This document shows positions 3,054 to 7,809 of a stretch of DNA of 64,000 nt, one piece after another. Position 1 is the stretch's first letter, and each line of letters starts with the position of its first letter. Origin of the DNA: Phenylobacterium sp. J426 (GTDB taxonomy: Bacteria > Pseudomonadota > Alphaproteobacteria > Caulobacterales > Caulobacteraceae). Location of the stretch: assembly GCF_024699945.1 (NCBI RefSeq), contig NZ_JAJOMY010000001.1, positions 2,170,001 through 2,234,000 on the forward strand, given 5' to 3'. Position numbers and translations under genes: made by a program. The notes under the pieces were generated by a model. The model saw only the letters and a list, made by a program, of their open reading frames with translations, was not told the DNA's origin and did not search any database.

Positions 3054-3812
3054 ATGGGCGAAGAGGGCAGGGCCGCAATCTGGCGGCGGCTGGCGGCGGC
3101 GGCCGTGGACGCGGTGTTCTTCATCCTGGCGGCGAGCCTTATCTCGGTCGCGCTCTACAACCTGTCGGACGGGCGCTTGCGCGCCTATGTCTTCCAGCCG
3201 GTCGACCGTTGCGAGGCCGTCGGCAGCATCTCGCCTGCCGTCGCCCGGGCCGCGCTGGCCGCGATCCCGGGGTCGGCCTCGCGGGTGGTGGGCGCGACCG
3301 CTTGCCGGCGGCTCTTCCTCGGGCTGGAGAGCGGCCGCTTCGTCTCGGTGAATGTCGAAGTCCAACAGGGCGAAACCGTGATGGGCGCCGCGGTGCTGCA
3401 GCCGGTGGACCGCGCCGGCGAACCGGTGCGTCCGCTGGCGTTCGGCTGGGCCTATCCGCTGGCCTTCGTGGTCTCGATGGCGATCGGTGAGGGGCTGCTG
3501 GGCGGCACGCCGGGCAAGGCGGGCTTCGGCGTGCGGGTGGTGCAAGCGAGCGGCGGTCGCCTGGGCCTGCCGAAGGCCCTGGTGCGGAACGCGATCGTCT
3601 ATGCTTGGCTCTTGGCGGGTGCGGCGACCGTGTTCGCGCTGCCGAAGCTTGGGACGGCCCTGCCGGGCCTCTTGCCCTACGGTGGAGCGGTCCGGGCGCT
3701 CGAACTCGCGGTGGTGGGCCTGCTGGCGCTGGCGGTGCTCGCCCAGTTGCTGATCGGCCGCCCCGATCCCGCCTACGACCGCTGGACGGGCGCGCGGGTG
3801 GTCCGCGCCTAG
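3054..3812 (+). CDS. RDD family membrane protein
   Basis: 252 residues. The N-terminus WRRLAAAAVDAVFFILAASL is the first RDD-type transmembrane segment with its Arg and Asp. A large extracytoplasmic loop with three Cys (residues about 45-130) follows, then three further hydrophobic segments (about 140-158, 184-205, 220-240). The glycine-rich GGTPGKAGFGVRVVQASGGR is the conserved cytoplasmic motif of RDD proteins. Some members act in ion or small-molecule exchange, but the role of this one is unknown. Its stop codon overlaps the stop of the converging TetR gene in a shared CTAG (3809-3812). Confidence 0.8.
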   Translation: MGEEGRAAIWRRLAAAAVDAVFFILAASLISVALYNLSDGRLRAYVFQPVDRCEAVGSISPAVARAALAAIPGSASRVVGATACRRLFLGLESGRFVSVNVEVQQGETVMGAAVLQPVDRAGEPVRPLAFGWAYPLAFVVSMAIGEGLLGGTPGKAGFGVRVVQASGGRLGLPKALVRNAIVYAWLLAGAATVFALPKLGTALPGLLPYGGAVRALELAVVGLLALAVLAQLLIGRPDPAYDRWTGARVVRA

Positions 3813-4414
3813 GCGGGATCGGGCCGCAGGCCCCGGCTCATGGCCTGGCCCATGGCGTGGTGCAGTTCCTTGGCCGTGCCCGGCGGCAGCTTGCCGGAGA
3901 GCTCCAGCACGACGGCGCCGTGGGCTGCGGCCCAGAACATCGTCTCGACGGTCTCGGGATCGCCTGCGAGGACGCCTTCAGCGATCAGCCCCTTCACGTA
4001 GTCGCGCAGGGTGGCGCGCGCCCGACGCCCGGCTTCCACCAGGTCAGGGTACCGGCCCTCGTCGGGCTGGTTCAGGTCGAACATCAGCTTGTAGGTGTGA
4101 GGATGCTCCAGGGCGAAGGTCACATAGGCGTCGCCCACAGCGGCGCCCTTGTGACGCGCGTCGCCGGCGGCGTGGTCGCTGGCCTGCTCCAGCGCCTCGG
4201 CGAAACGGTTGAAGCCGTTGGCCCGCACCGCCGCGAGGATCTCGTCCTTGTCCTGGAAGTAGCGGTAGGGAGTCATCGGCGAGACGCCCAGCTCCGACGC
4301 CAGCTGGCGCATCGTCACCGCGTCCGGCCCGCGCTCGGCGAACAGCCGCTCGGCCGCGGCGCACAGCCGTTCGCGGAAGTCGGCGACGTCGGTTTCGGTC
4401 AGGACGCGGGGCAT
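3809..4414 (-). CDS. TetR/AcrR family transcriptional regulator
   Basis: 201 residues. The N-terminal helix-turn-helix reads FRERLCAAAERLFAERG, then AVTMRQLASELGVSPMTPYRYF, with the DKDEIL that follows in most TetR repressors. The C-terminal half is a TetR_C_33-like ligand domain. It is transcribed away from the carotenoid oxygenase gene, and the 92-base gap contains an inverted repeat at 4470-4485. The natural inference is repression of the divergent oxygenase-alkylsulfatase pair, and probably of itself, relieved by a hydrophobic ligand. No ligand can be named from sequence. Confidence 0.9.
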   Translation of the reverse strand: MPRVLTETDVADFRERLCAAAERLFAERGPDAVTMRQLASELGVSPMTPYRYFQDKDEILAAVRANGFNRFAEALEQASDHAAGDARHKGAAVGDAYVTFALEHPHTYKLMFDLNQPDEGRYPDLVEAGRRARATLRDYVKGLIAEGVLAGDPETVETMFWAAAHGAVVLELSGKLPPGTAKELHHAMGQAMSRGLRPDPA

Positions 4415-4469
4415 CGGGACTCAGCTGCTCACAAAGCGCTTGCCAAGGCCTAGCCCTTGCCACATAAAT

Positions 4470-4485
4470 TTACAACGTAAGTTGT
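4470..4485. promoter_or_regulatory. Probable TetR operator in the divergent intergenic region
   Basis: The sequence TTACAACGTAAGTTGT contains two overlapping dyads: TTAC-AAC-GTAA and ACAAC-GTAA-GTTGT. It lies between the TetR start and the oxygenase ribosome-binding site (GGAGGA about 4495-4500). Size, symmetry and position suit a TetR dimer, but binding is inferred. Confidence 0.5.
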
Positions 4486-4506: not shown

Positions 4507-5898
4507 ATGGACGGCGATGCGCGCATCAACCCCTACCTGGCGGGCAACTTCGCCCCCGTGCGGTCCGAGGACGACTTTGATCTCGCCGTGAAGGGCGAGA
4601 TCCCGCGCGAGCTGCGCGGCGCCCTCTTCCGCATCGGTCCCAATCCGCAGTTCGAACCGAGGGATCCCAACCACCACTGGTTCGGCGGCGACGGCATGGT
4701 CCACGGCTTCTACGTCGAGGACGGGAAGGTGTCGTATCGCAACCGCTACGTCCGCACGCCGAAATGGGAACTGGAGCACGAGCACGGCCGCTCGCTGTTC
4801 GGGTCCTTCGGCAATCCGATGACCACCGACCCGCTGGCCTTCGGGAACGAGGGCGGTGTCGCCAACACCAACATCGTCTGGCACGGCGGCCGGCTGCTGG
4901 CGCTTGAGGAGGGGCACCACCCCTTCGAGATGCACCCGAATGATCTTTCGTCCCGCGGCTACGTTCGCGACTACCGGGGCCGGGTCACGGCGCATCCGAA
5001 GATCGATCCCGTCACCGGCGAGATGGTCTGGTTCGCCTACGGCGTCGGCGAGATGCCGCTTTCGGCCGGGATGAGCTACGGGGTGACCGACGCCTCGGGC
5101 CGGGTGGTCCGCCGCGACGACTTCCAGGCCCCTTACGCCTCGATGATCCACGACTTCATGGTGACCGAGAACCATGTGCTGTTCCCGGTCCTGCCCCTGA
5201 CGGCCAGCCTGGAACGGGCGATGAGCGGCAAGCCGGCTTTCGCCTGGGAGCCGGAGAAGGGCGCCTACGTCGGCGTCATGCGCCGCGACGGCTCGGTGGA
5301 TGACATCCGCTGGTTCAACACCGAGGCCTGCTACGTCTTTCACCCGCTGAACGCCTGGGAGGCGGACGGCAAGCTCTACGCCGACGTCATGCGCTATGAC
5401 GCGGCCCCGCTGTTCCCGAACGCCGACGGTTCGCCGGGCCGCAAGACCGCCGCGCGGCTGGTCCGCTGGACGTTCGACCTCGACGGCGACAGCGACGCGA
5501 TCCGGGAGGAGGCGCTGGACGACCTCGACGGCGAGTTTCCGCGCGTCGATCCCCGCGTCGAGACGAGGAAGCACCGGCACGGCTGGTACGCCGCCGACCC
5601 CTCGGGCGCGAAGACGATCAAGCAGACCGCCATCGCCCACCTCGACCTTTCGACCGGCCGGCGCCAGGCCTACGAGCTGACCGGCGGCGACATGACCTCC
5701 GAGCCGGTATTCGTGCCCCGCGCCGCCGACGCCCCCGAGGGCGACGGCTGGCTGACGGCGGTGGTCTGGCGGGCGGCCGAGAACCGCTCGGACCTGCTGA
5801 TCTTCGAGGCCCAGGATGTCGCGAAAGGTCCGATAGCCACGGCCGAGATGCCGCGGCGTGTGCCCTTCGGCTTCCATGGCAACTGGGCCAGCTTCTAG
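4507..5898 (+). CDS. Carotenoid oxygenase (RPE65/lignostilbene dioxygenase family)
   Basis: 463 residues, full length for the non-haem iron carotenoid cleavage dioxygenase family. The start NPYLAGNFAPVRSEDDFDL is followed by GALFRIGPNPQFEP and WFGGDGMVHGF, hallmark N-terminal blocks. The four iron-ligand histidines appear to lie in VTAHPKIDP, SMIHDFMVTENH, CYVFHPLNAWE and the C-terminal GFHGNWASF. Such enzymes cleave a double bond of carotenoids, apocarotenoids or stilbene-like phenylpropanoids, and the sequence does not separate these. The gene is divergent from tetR and 54 bases upstream of the alkylsulfatase gene, with which it may form an operon. Confidence 0.9.
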   Translation: MDGDARINPYLAGNFAPVRSEDDFDLAVKGEIPRELRGALFRIGPNPQFEPRDPNHHWFGGDGMVHGFYVEDGKVSYRNRYVRTPKWELEHEHGRSLFGSFGNPMTTDPLAFGNEGGVANTNIVWHGGRLLALEEGHHPFEMHPNDLSSRGYVRDYRGRVTAHPKIDPVTGEMVWFAYGVGEMPLSAGMSYGVTDASGRVVRRDDFQAPYASMIHDFMVTENHVLFPVLPLTASLERAMSGKPAFAWEPEKGAYVGVMRRDGSVDDIRWFNTEACYVFHPLNAWEADGKLYADVMRYDAAPLFPNADGSPGRKTAARLVRWTFDLDGDSDAIREEALDDLDGEFPRVDPRVETRKHRHGWYAADPSGAKTIKQTAIAHLDLSTGRRQAYELTGGDMTSEPVFVPRAADAPEGDGWLTAVVWRAAENRSDLLIFEAQDVAKGPIATAEMPRRVPFGFHGNWASF

Positions 5899-5923
5899 AC
5901 ACCGTCGCCGGAACATGATCCTG

Positions 5924-5952
5924 CGGACGCCTCTGCCATAAGGAGGCGTCCG
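5924..5952 (+). promoter_or_regulatory. Perfect hairpin covering the alkylsulfatase Shine-Dalgarno
   Basis: CGGACGCCTC (5924-5933) pairs perfectly with GAGGCGTCCG (5943-5952) around a 9-base loop. The right arm contains most of the Shine-Dalgarno AAGGAGG (5940-5946) and ends one base before the ATG at 5953. In RNA this would bury the ribosome-binding site. Translational control is inferred. The dyad could instead be a DNA operator. Confidence 0.6.
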
Positions 5953-7809
5953 ATGCGGAAGTGGCTGTGCGGCCTGGCGGTCGCGGCGTTGGCCGGCAGC
6001 GCCTGGGCGGCGCCCGATTTCCGGGATCGCCAGGACTTCGAGTTCGCCGACCGCGGCTTCCTCGGCACGCGTCAGGACCCGAAGATCACCACCGCCGACG
6101 GCCGGGTCGTTTGGGACCTCTCCGCCTACGACTTCCTGAAGGCCGACGCGCCGGCCAGCGTGAACCCCAGCCTGTGGCGCCAGTCGCAGCTCTTGGCCCG
6201 GCACGGCCTGTTCAAGGTCACCGACGGCGTCTGGCAGGTGCGAGGCTTCGATCTCGCCAACGCCACCTTCATCGCCGGCAAGACCGGCTGGATCGTCATC
6301 GATCCGCTGACCTCGGCGGAAACCGCGAAGGCCGCGCTCGAACTGGTCAACGAGAAGCTGGGCGCCCGTCCCGTCGTCGCCCTCGTCTACACCCACAGCC
6401 ACGTGGACCATTTCGGCGGCGCGCGCGGGATGGTCGACCAGGCCGAGGTCGACGGGGGTCGCGTGCAGGTGATCGCGCCTGCGGGCTTCCTCGAGCACGC
6501 CGTCAGCGAGAACGTCATCGCCGGCCCCGCCATGCAGCGGCGGGCGACCTATCAGTTCGGCAGCTCCCTGCCGAAGGGACCTGAGGGGCAGGTCAACGCC
6601 GGCATCGGGATGGCGGTGAGCGCCGGGACCCAGACCCTCGTGCCGCCGACCCTGGAAATCGCCCGCACCGGCCAGACGCTCACCGTCGACGGCGTCCGCA
6701 TGGAGTTCCAGCTGACGCCCAATACCGAGGCGCCGGCCGAGATGAACATCTACCTGCCGGACCTGAAGGCGTTGTGCCTCGCCGAGAACGCCAACGCCAC
6801 AATGCACAACGTGCTCACGCCGCGCGGCTTCCTGGTGCGGGACGCCAAGGTCTGGGCTGACGCGCTGACGGAATCGCTGCGCCTGTACGGTGATCGCTCG
6901 GACGTGGTGTTCACCAGCCACGCCTGGCCGCGTTTCGGGCGAGAGGCCATCGCCGAGTACGTGTCCAAACATCGCGACGCCTACAAGTTCCTGCACGACC
7001 AGACCGTGCGGCTGATGAACGACGGCCTCACCGGAAACGAGATCGCGAACCGGCTGAAGCTGCCCGAGGTCCTGGATCGGGAGTGGTACAACCGCGGCTA
7101 CTACGGCACGGTCAGCTTCAACAGCCGCGCGGTCTATCAGCGATACATGGGCTGGTACGACGCCAACCCCGTGAACCTCGCCCCGCTCGAGCCCGCCGAC
7201 GAGAGCGCCCGCTACGTGGCCGCGATGGGCGGGCGGTCGAAGGTGCTGGCGCAGGCGCGCAAGGCCTACGAGGCGGGCGACGACCGCTGGGCCGCAACGC
7301 TGGCCAACCGGCTGGTGCTGGCGGATGCGCAGAACCGCCAGGCCCGCGAGCTGTTGGCGCGGATCTACGACCGTCAGGGCGCCGGGGCCGAGAGCGCGCT
7401 GTGGCGGAACATGTATCTCTCCGGCGCCCGGGAGCTGCGCCAGGGCGTACCGACCGGCGGCGGCCGCGGCGCCACGTCCGAGCTGATCCGCAACACGCCG
7501 ACCGGCATGCTGCTCGACCTGTTGTCGGTGCGGTTGGACCCCGCGAAGTCGAATGGCCAGGGGGCCAGCGTCGATCTGGTGTTTCCCGAGCGCAAGGAGC
7601 GGTTTCGGGTCGCGGTGCGCAATGACGTCCTGACCTGGGAGGCCGAACCGACGTCAGGGGCTGCTGACGGCGTGGTCAGCCTGCCGCGCTCGCAGTTCCT
7701 GGCGACGGCCCTGGGGGCCGCGCCGGCGCCGGCAGGCGCCGAGCCGCTGACGAGGATCCTGGGCTGGCTGTCGGCGCCCAGGGCCGACTTCCCGATCGTG
7801 ACCCGCTAG
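5953..7809 (+). CDS. Alkyl/aryl-sulfatase, metallo-beta-lactamase fold (SdsA-like)
   Basis: 618 residues with a signal peptide (MRKWLCGLAVAALAGSAWA) predicting periplasmic export. The metallo-beta-lactamase zinc motif THSHVDHFGG lies at 147-156. The extended N-terminal region (DRGFLGTRQDP, SAYDFLKADAPASVNPSLWRQSQL) is typical of class III alkylsulfatases. It is followed by the alkyl-sulfatase dimerisation domain and a C-terminal SCP2-like lipid-binding domain. Relatives such as Pseudomonas SdsA1 hydrolyse primary alkyl sulfates such as SDS to alcohols. It follows the carotenoid oxygenase and an SD-covering hairpin, and its stop overlaps the converging small gene in a shared CTAG (7806-7809). 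Confidence 0.9.
   Translation: MRKWLCGLAVAALAGSAWAAPDFRDRQDFEFADRGFLGTRQDPKITTADGRVVWDLSAYDFLKADAPASVNPSLWRQSQLLARHGLFKVTDGVWQVRGFDLANATFIAGKTGWIVIDPLTSAETAKAALELVNEKLGARPVVALVYTHSHVDHFGGARGMVDQAEVDGGRVQVIAPAGFLEHAVSENVIAGPAMQRRATYQFGSSLPKGPEGQVNAGIGMAVSAGTQTLVPPTLEIARTGQTLTVDGVRMEFQLTPNTEAPAEMNIYLPDLKALCLAENANATMHNVLTPRGFLVRDAKVWADALTESLRLYGDRSDVVFTSHAWPRFGREAIAEYVSKHRDAYKFLHDQTVRLMNDGLTGNEIANRLKLPEVLDREWYNRGYYGTVSFNSRAVYQRYMGWYDANPVNLAPLEPADESARYVAAMGGRSKVLAQARKAYEAGDDRWAATLANRLVLADAQNRQARELLARIYDRQGAGAESALWRNMYLSGARELRQGVPTGGGRGATSELIRNTPTGMLLDLLSVRLDPAKSNGQGASVDLVFPERKERFRVAVRNDVLTWEAEPTSGAADGVVSLPRSQFLATALGAAPAPAGAEPLTRILGWLSAPRADFPIVTR

Follow-up and report, generated by a model that had tools for sequence, protein, structure and literature searches.

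A Shine-Dalgarno-masking hairpin at an alkylsulfatase gene of Phenylobacterium and its association with the orientation of the upstream gene: a candidate shield against translation of read-through RNA

Why should a bacterial gene carry, directly in front of its start codon, a perfect hairpin that hides its own Shine-Dalgarno (SD)? The question is raised by an alkylsulfatase gene of Phenylobacterium sp. J426, located in a stretch of 64,000 nucleotides (64 kb) that was analysed as a whole and is called the window here. An earlier note on this DNA had described a 10-bp perfect stem over AAGGAGG next to the ATG, and this description proved exact: the arms CGGACGCCTC and GAGGCGTCCG (5924-5933 and 5943-5952) are 100% complementary and form 10 bp with 9 nt between them, and the right arm ends at 5952, immediately 5' of the ATG at 5953-5955 (Table 1). 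As RNA, the stem with the additional U·G pair comprises 11 bp and a 7-nt loop; GGAGG (5942-5946) is paired in the stem, and the two A of AAGGAGG lie in the loop. The isolated hairpin has predicted energies of -23.0 at 30 C, -20.9 at 37 C and -19.2 kcal/mol at 42 C, and the predicted cost of opening the SD is 14.2 kcal/mol with 65 nt upstream, or 13.3-14.2 kcal/mol across all six folding frames used. According to these folding models, the SD is buried within a stable stem of the long RNA.

Table 1. Features of the alkylsulfatase locus and its neighbours, with positions in the window.
Feature	Position	Strand	Remarks
Left (anti-SD) arm	5924..5933	+	CGGACGCCTC
Spacer	5934..5942	+	TGCCATAAG; T5934/G5942 able to add a U·G pair
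Right arm	5943..5952	+	GAGGCGTCCG; contains most of the SD core; directly abuts ATG
Shine-Dalgarno (SD) AAGGAGG	5940..5946	+	6 nt before ATG; from motif and spacing
Alkylsulfatase, 618 aa	5953..7809	+	Metallo-beta-lactamase fold, dimerisation and C-terminal domains; Pfam PF00753, PF14863, PF14864
RPE65/carotenoid-lignostilbene type dioxygenase	4507..5898	+	Pfam PF03055; 54 nt upstream of alkylsulfatase, same direction; presumed source of read-through RNA
TetR-type regulator	3809..4414	-	Pfam PF00440, PF13305; divergent from dioxygenase
Promoter-like TTGCCA-N17-CATAAA before dioxygenase	4440..4468	+	Suggested by motif and spacing only
Operator-like AATTTACAACGTAAGTT	4467..4483	+	Putative; near-palindrome between TetR-type gene and dioxygenase
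TAGACA, weak -35-like hexamer	5896..5901	+	Overlaps dioxygenase stop; 57 nt before ATG; no convincing -10
Possible 8-codon leader ORF MILRTPLP	5915..5941	+	Read from sequence; spans left arm; stop TAA abuts SD; without good SD

The full hairpin sequence occurs a single time in the 64-kb window with up to 3 mismatches permitted, and the 8-bp core of the dyad, spaced in this way, is found at one place in the genome (4.64 Mb, 3 contigs), which rules out a dispersed repeat. When the upstream sequence of the window gene was dinucleotide-shuffled 1000 times, a stem of equal length arose in 4, and the opening cost of 14.2 kcal/mol has a shuffle p of 0.006; the whole 102-nt fold is less remarkable, with 7 of 200 shuffles folding equally well. 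Background genes were taken from stretches of ten genomes of the same genus, where 703 of the 1899 genes called by our home-made, rough gene callers had a usable SD and neighbour. None of these 703 genes reached 14.2 kcal/mol (maximum 13.0), and none displayed a perfect Watson-Crick stem of at least 10 bp over the SD with a loop of up to 20 nt. The rarity of one gene picked from a 64-kb window is, alone, suggestive but not decisive evidence, to which the comparison of relatives adds weight. Such a stem might still be the work of chance, as GC-rich spacers and a G-rich SD give occasional long stems and this one was spotted by a scanning reader. With a per-gene shuffle p of 0.004-0.006, finding a single such gene in a 64-kb window is not remarkable, the long stem is absent from most near orthologs, and a background of 429 genes lies close to shuffle expectation (14 perfect stems of at least 6 bp observed vs 10.3 expected); strong genus-wide enrichment of SD masking was looked for in the background genes of the genus stretches and was not seen. 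We nevertheless consider chance unlikely, though a contender to be reckoned with, because two relatives cover the same SD with perfect 11-bp stems that differ in sequence and because the opening cost depends on the orientation of the upstream gene.

The ortholog set comprised 21 Phenylobacterium loci, namely the window and 20 other genomes of the genus, at 71-78% identity. GGAGG serves as the SD in 18 of the 21 orthologs (window included), with GGAG in L213, GGGA in L015 and none recognised in L007, which was for this reason excluded from the opening-cost counts, so that 20 of the 21 were used. The stem is more variable. Watson-Crick stems of 11 bp are present in L009 and L017, where the sequences differ from that of the window and the loops measure 15 nt against 9 in the window, and stems as long were obtained in 8 of 1000 shuffles for L009 and in 0 of 1000 for L017. 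L004 harbors a near-perfect stem (-27.5 kcal/mol) and L008 one of 8 bp with U·G, and the remaining orthologs have a shorter stem or none. Within the columns of the L009 stem, pairing is 11 of 11 in L009, 10 of 11 in L004 and 8 of 11 in L032, whose upstream gene is divergent (L015 lies outside this count). Because the stem varies among orthologs, it represents neither a single operator nor a single conserved RNA. The possibility of one RNA conserved with covariation was considered and rejected, since the stems of L009 and L017 fall in separate clades and each clade includes a divergent member without a stem of this kind; the two stems therefore look like separate gains, and pair swaps between them were not scored as compensatory change. 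Beyond the near orthologs, conservation was not seen, a stem of at least 8 bp being detected in 1 of 62 relatives (L187, shuffle p 0.08). Over all orthologs, pairing is thus not conserved while the SD is, which the earlier note had named as evidence against its proposal; yet the loss of pairing follows the orientation of the upstream gene.

In the same-direction group (10 orthologs), the dioxygenase gene lies upstream in the window, L008, L014, L016 and L017, a DUF2855 gene in L006, L012 and L019 (the last judged by its end sequence), and, in L004 and L009, an ORF that matches no Pfam family. The divergent group (11 orthologs) has a PF00144 beta-lactamase-family gene in L003, L005, L011, L015 and L032, and an FAD-binding PF01494 gene in L007, L010 and L018; L213 was assigned to the group from its sequence and its likeness to L010, and L013, by its small divergent ORF, and L020, by the divergent ORF nearest to the gene, were placed there on visual inspection. 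With 65 nt upstream, the opening costs in kcal/mol were 14.2 (window), 10.0, 6.2, 6.6, 16.0, 7.1, 3.4, 10.6, 11.1 and 7.3 in the same-direction group, and 1.8, 0, 2.5, 2.6, 1.3, 3.8, 8.8, 3.4, 2.7 and 2.7 in ten divergent orthologs. The medians of 8.6 (10) and 2.7 (10) differ with a Mann-Whitney U p of 0.00057, or 0.00095 without the window, in a post hoc grouping of small numbers that was picked after the stems had been seen. When 30 nt of the gene were added, p was 0.0077 (0.014 without the window). Only the same-direction group departs from its own shuffles, with a combined shuffle p of 0.00016 for its nine members other than the window, compared with 0.95 for the divergent group and 0.017 when all 19 orthologs other than the window are combined. 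Masking is moderate only (3.4-7.3) in five of the ten same-direction orthologs, and the divergent L018 stands at 8.8. The orientation signal weakens to p = 0.076 without the window when 150 nt upstream and 36 nt of the gene are folded, and is p = 0.012 with the window included when the 150-nt upstream frame carries 60 nt of the gene. In a first test by duplex energy, whose right-hand region truncated the longer stems in part, orientation had p = 0.038, or 0.065 with the window left out; without the window the combined shuffle p of this test was 0.51, with 0 of 19 orthologs at p of 0.01 or less.

The protein tree indicates that orientation has switched repeatedly, with 9 changes by parsimony and at least 5 forced by the starred branches. 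All five tree contrasts with values on both sides agree in that the same-direction member is costlier: the window (14.2) vs L003 (1.8); L017 (11.1) vs L018 (8.8), at a fork that is not starred (88/93); L006 (6.2) vs L011 (2.6); L019 (7.3) vs L010 and L213 (2.5 and 2.7); and L004 and L009 (10.0 and 16.0) vs L015 and L032 (3.8 and 2.7), these four being within one unresolved clade. No sister contrast came from L012, L013 and L014, which are unplaced in the tree, nor from L007 with the clade of L008 and L016.

Same-direction alkylsulfatase genes, taken without the window, also exceed same-direction background genes in opening cost (n = 207, p = 0.0003), including a same-direction background restricted to GGAGG (n = 60, p = 0.0075). 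They likewise exceed (p = 0.0003) the dioxygenase gene that served as a control, with a median of 1.9 over 20 loci, whose upstream neighbour is the divergent TetR gene in all 20 loci and whose SD cost reaches 6.1-9.1 in 5 of the 20. Between divergent alkylsulfatase genes and divergent background genes, no difference in opening cost was found (p = 0.85). The background genes themselves show the same trend with cruder gene calls (p = 0.003; cost of at least 10 in 9 of 139 same-direction vs 0 of 169 divergent genes), and with better gene calls at gaps of 30-150 (p = 0.011), where it is mostly explained by composition (p = 0.28 when shuffle p values are compared). Since this trend runs in the same sense, part of the orientation effect may be general, and same-direction spacers may be somewhat more structured in general.

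Several side observations concern the SDs of other genes. In the background stretches, GGAGG SDs have a median cost of 5.3 (60) behind same-direction genes and 3.1 (58) behind divergent ones (p = 0.0025), and this difference is not significant once shuffle-controlled (p = 0.14). In L092, near position 1072, a perfect 9-bp stem (CCTCCAAAC/GTTTGGAGG) covers the SD of a nitronate-monooxygenase-like gene (named by eye) that lies 71 nt behind a same-direction gene. An identical 7-bp stem, CTCCATC/GATGGAG, covers the SD of the gene just after alkylsulfatase, aminotransferase-like as named by eye, in L081 (genome G265) and L083 (genome G006).

The stem, its rarity and, in relatives, the association of masking with a same-direction neighbour are results of computation, and a loss of pairing that tracks upstream-gene orientation points to insulation from read-through, a reading missing from the earlier note. 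We put about even confidence in the proposal that the hairpin is an RNA fold-back shield against translation of read-through RNA. Transcripts that run into the alkylsulfatase gene, in the window those of the dioxygenase gene ending 54 nt before it, would carry both arms; the anti-SD arm would pair with the SD and block 30S entry, and translation would need RNA without an intact left arm, most simply supplied by a promoter that belongs to the gene itself and lies inside or just upstream of the stem. On this reading, the stem would form in cells and block translation, and the translated RNA would start past the left arm.

Promoter-like elements of the relatives are consistent with this arrangement. 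Of the 21 orthologs, 14 have TTGCCA at a distance of 35-55 nt from the ATG and 3 have GTGACA at 51-76 nt, and from motif and spacing we take these hexamers as putative -35 boxes, each followed by a -10 after about 17-18 nt. In the scanned stretches, a TTGCCAA-type element, in most cases followed by CA or AA at a spacing of 17 nt, was noticed at 8 dioxygenase and 5 alkylsulfatase sites (window 4440-4468; L081, L083, L087, L089 and L091), which suggests a promoter type common to both genes. Altogether 13 of 33 TTGCCAA sites precede alkylsulfatase or dioxygenase genes, which is not an unbiased rate because, among the first 60 background stretches, 9 had been picked for their alkylsulfatase locus. 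The left arm is located between the box and the expected start, within the spacer of the element, in L004, L009 and L017, and overlaps the -10-like position in L008. As the left arm is inside the promoter-like element in these relatives, RNA from the gene's own promoter should lack it. In these four loci, RNA from the assumed start opens at 0-4.4 kcal/mol vs 5.7-16.6 for the long forms, a low cost that is partly true by construction because the pairing partner is removed. The geometry of a shield, with an own start beyond the 5' arm, thus fits L004, L008, L009 and L017, and the window offers the weak TAGACA only. This counts against the shield: the window gene has no TTGCCA, and a sigma-70-type scan of 5600-6050 returned no site; TAGACA is plausibly spaced, and RNA initiated from it would begin near 5931, within the left arm. 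We infer that the window gene also possesses an inner start or a processing site. With neither of these, the hairpin would simply silence it; without an inner start, processing or a helper would have to open the stem, or the gene would be nearly silent.

The most serious functional rival of the fold-back shield is that the stem belongs to the 3' end of the upstream gene, where it would cap or terminate the dioxygenase mRNA as an exonuclease barrier and mask the SD as a by-product; we regard this rival as quite unlikely. This equally predicts stems where a same-direction gene ends upstream, it fits the weak background trend, and the stem does begin 25 nt past the dioxygenase stop. Yet the stem is followed by ATGCGG without a U tract and a terminator scan of 5600-6050 gave 0 sites, on which grounds an intrinsic terminator was rejected; L008 and L016 appear by eye to carry a separate stem nearer the dioxygenase stop; and a 3'-end stem need not include the SD. 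The rank of the SD among spacer windows (3rd to 44th of 61) does not separate the two readings.

The earlier note had proposed translational control, which in the form of a masked SD finds support in the comparison, or else a DNA operator. Of the opening routes it offered, an RNA thermometer is unlikely, as the helix is predicted not to melt within the growth range (-23.0 at 30 C and still -19.2 kcal/mol at 42 C), and so is coupled translation from the dioxygenase, whose stop ends at 5898: the usual footprint of a terminating ribosome falls short of the stem start at 5924. A regulated switch, in which a small RNA, a protein or ribosomes translating the 8-codon leader ORF open the stem when required, would suit a gene without a clear promoter of its own, and that ORF crosses the left arm and stops at the SD; we hold it to be improbable all the same, given that the ORF has no good SD and is by eye not kept in the upstream regions of relatives that were inspected, that Rfam yields 0 matches at the gathering score in the 64-kb window, which also led us to reject an Rfam riboregulator, and that the dependence on orientation is left unexplained. 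Binding of a dimeric repressor to the dyad as DNA appears very improbable, despite a TetR-type gene nearby and a perfect dyad placed where a repressor could block. Arm sequences and spacing vary between relatives (9 nt apart in the window, 15 in L009 and L017), which weighs against one DNA operator, and the core dyad at this spacing has one genomic place. A better candidate, whose sequence is conserved, occupies the region from the TetR gene to the dioxygenase: the first 15 letters of AATTTACAACGTAAGTT precede the dioxygenase gene in 20 of 20 loci examined, and in relatives AATTTACAACGTAAG is found again upstream of the dioxygenase gene, the divergent TetR gene being 52-71 nt away (20 of 20 loci), so that this element is probably the TetR operator.

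Bacterial genes are tightly packed and transcription often continues into the next gene, and a hairpin formed by the long RNA alone would let a gene ignore read-through without a terminator. A chromosomal case that tracks neighbour orientation would make insulation testable generally and warn against calling such neighbours operons. More tentatively, and in our view less likely than not, orientation may itself drive the gain and decay of anti-SD arms concealed within promoters, the arm being selected behind a same-direction neighbour and decaying after a flip; the stretch from -35 to start would then be selected for SD pairing, so that only own-promoter RNA is translated. Adjacent genes would in that case be separated by a bacterial insulator that has evolved repeatedly and acts on translation, not on termination.

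The fold-back logic would be shared with IS10, a mobile element, whose transposase is protected from external promoters because transcripts reading in from outside fold back on themselves and yield little protein. An SD held in a helix beside the start codon is also a feature of RNA thermometers and riboswitch platforms, but the alkylsulfatase stem is predicted to be too stable to melt at growth temperature and the window has no Rfam match. Literature searches, among them for longer transcript isoforms that escape translation, led to no chromosomal case of this design among the matches listed, which is not a claim of absence from print, and a weak search on Phenylobacterium, alkylsulfatase, Shine-Dalgarno and promoter gave, among the matches listed, none on this gene by title. 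The homing endonuclease genes I-TevI and segB of phage T4 and mobE of phage Aeh1 are described as having the SD in a stable structure, whose formation in the case of I-TevI is limited to transcripts initiated at upstream promoters (PMC2988022). Like the alkylsulfatase gene, they are embedded downstream of others with the SD in such a structure, but they are mobile endonuclease genes under phage timing, and no such timing is known for alkylsulfatase. A close parallel in layout concerns the lysozyme gene e of T4, where the long, upstream-started RNA is described as folding and hiding the initiation region with a 100-fold reduction, and where promoters lie within the DNA of the 5' strand and their RNA, lacking that strand, is translated (PMC3014915). 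Both systems would share a left arm within a promoter-like element (here in relatives) and a long RNA that hides the SD; gene e has T4 late promoters and a measured effect, whereas the alkylsulfatase gene is chromosomal, its folding and starts are predicted from sequence, and its stem varies with upstream-gene orientation. The shield logic is already documented in phage T4, and by analogy the chromosomal alkylsulfatase gene is a candidate further case.
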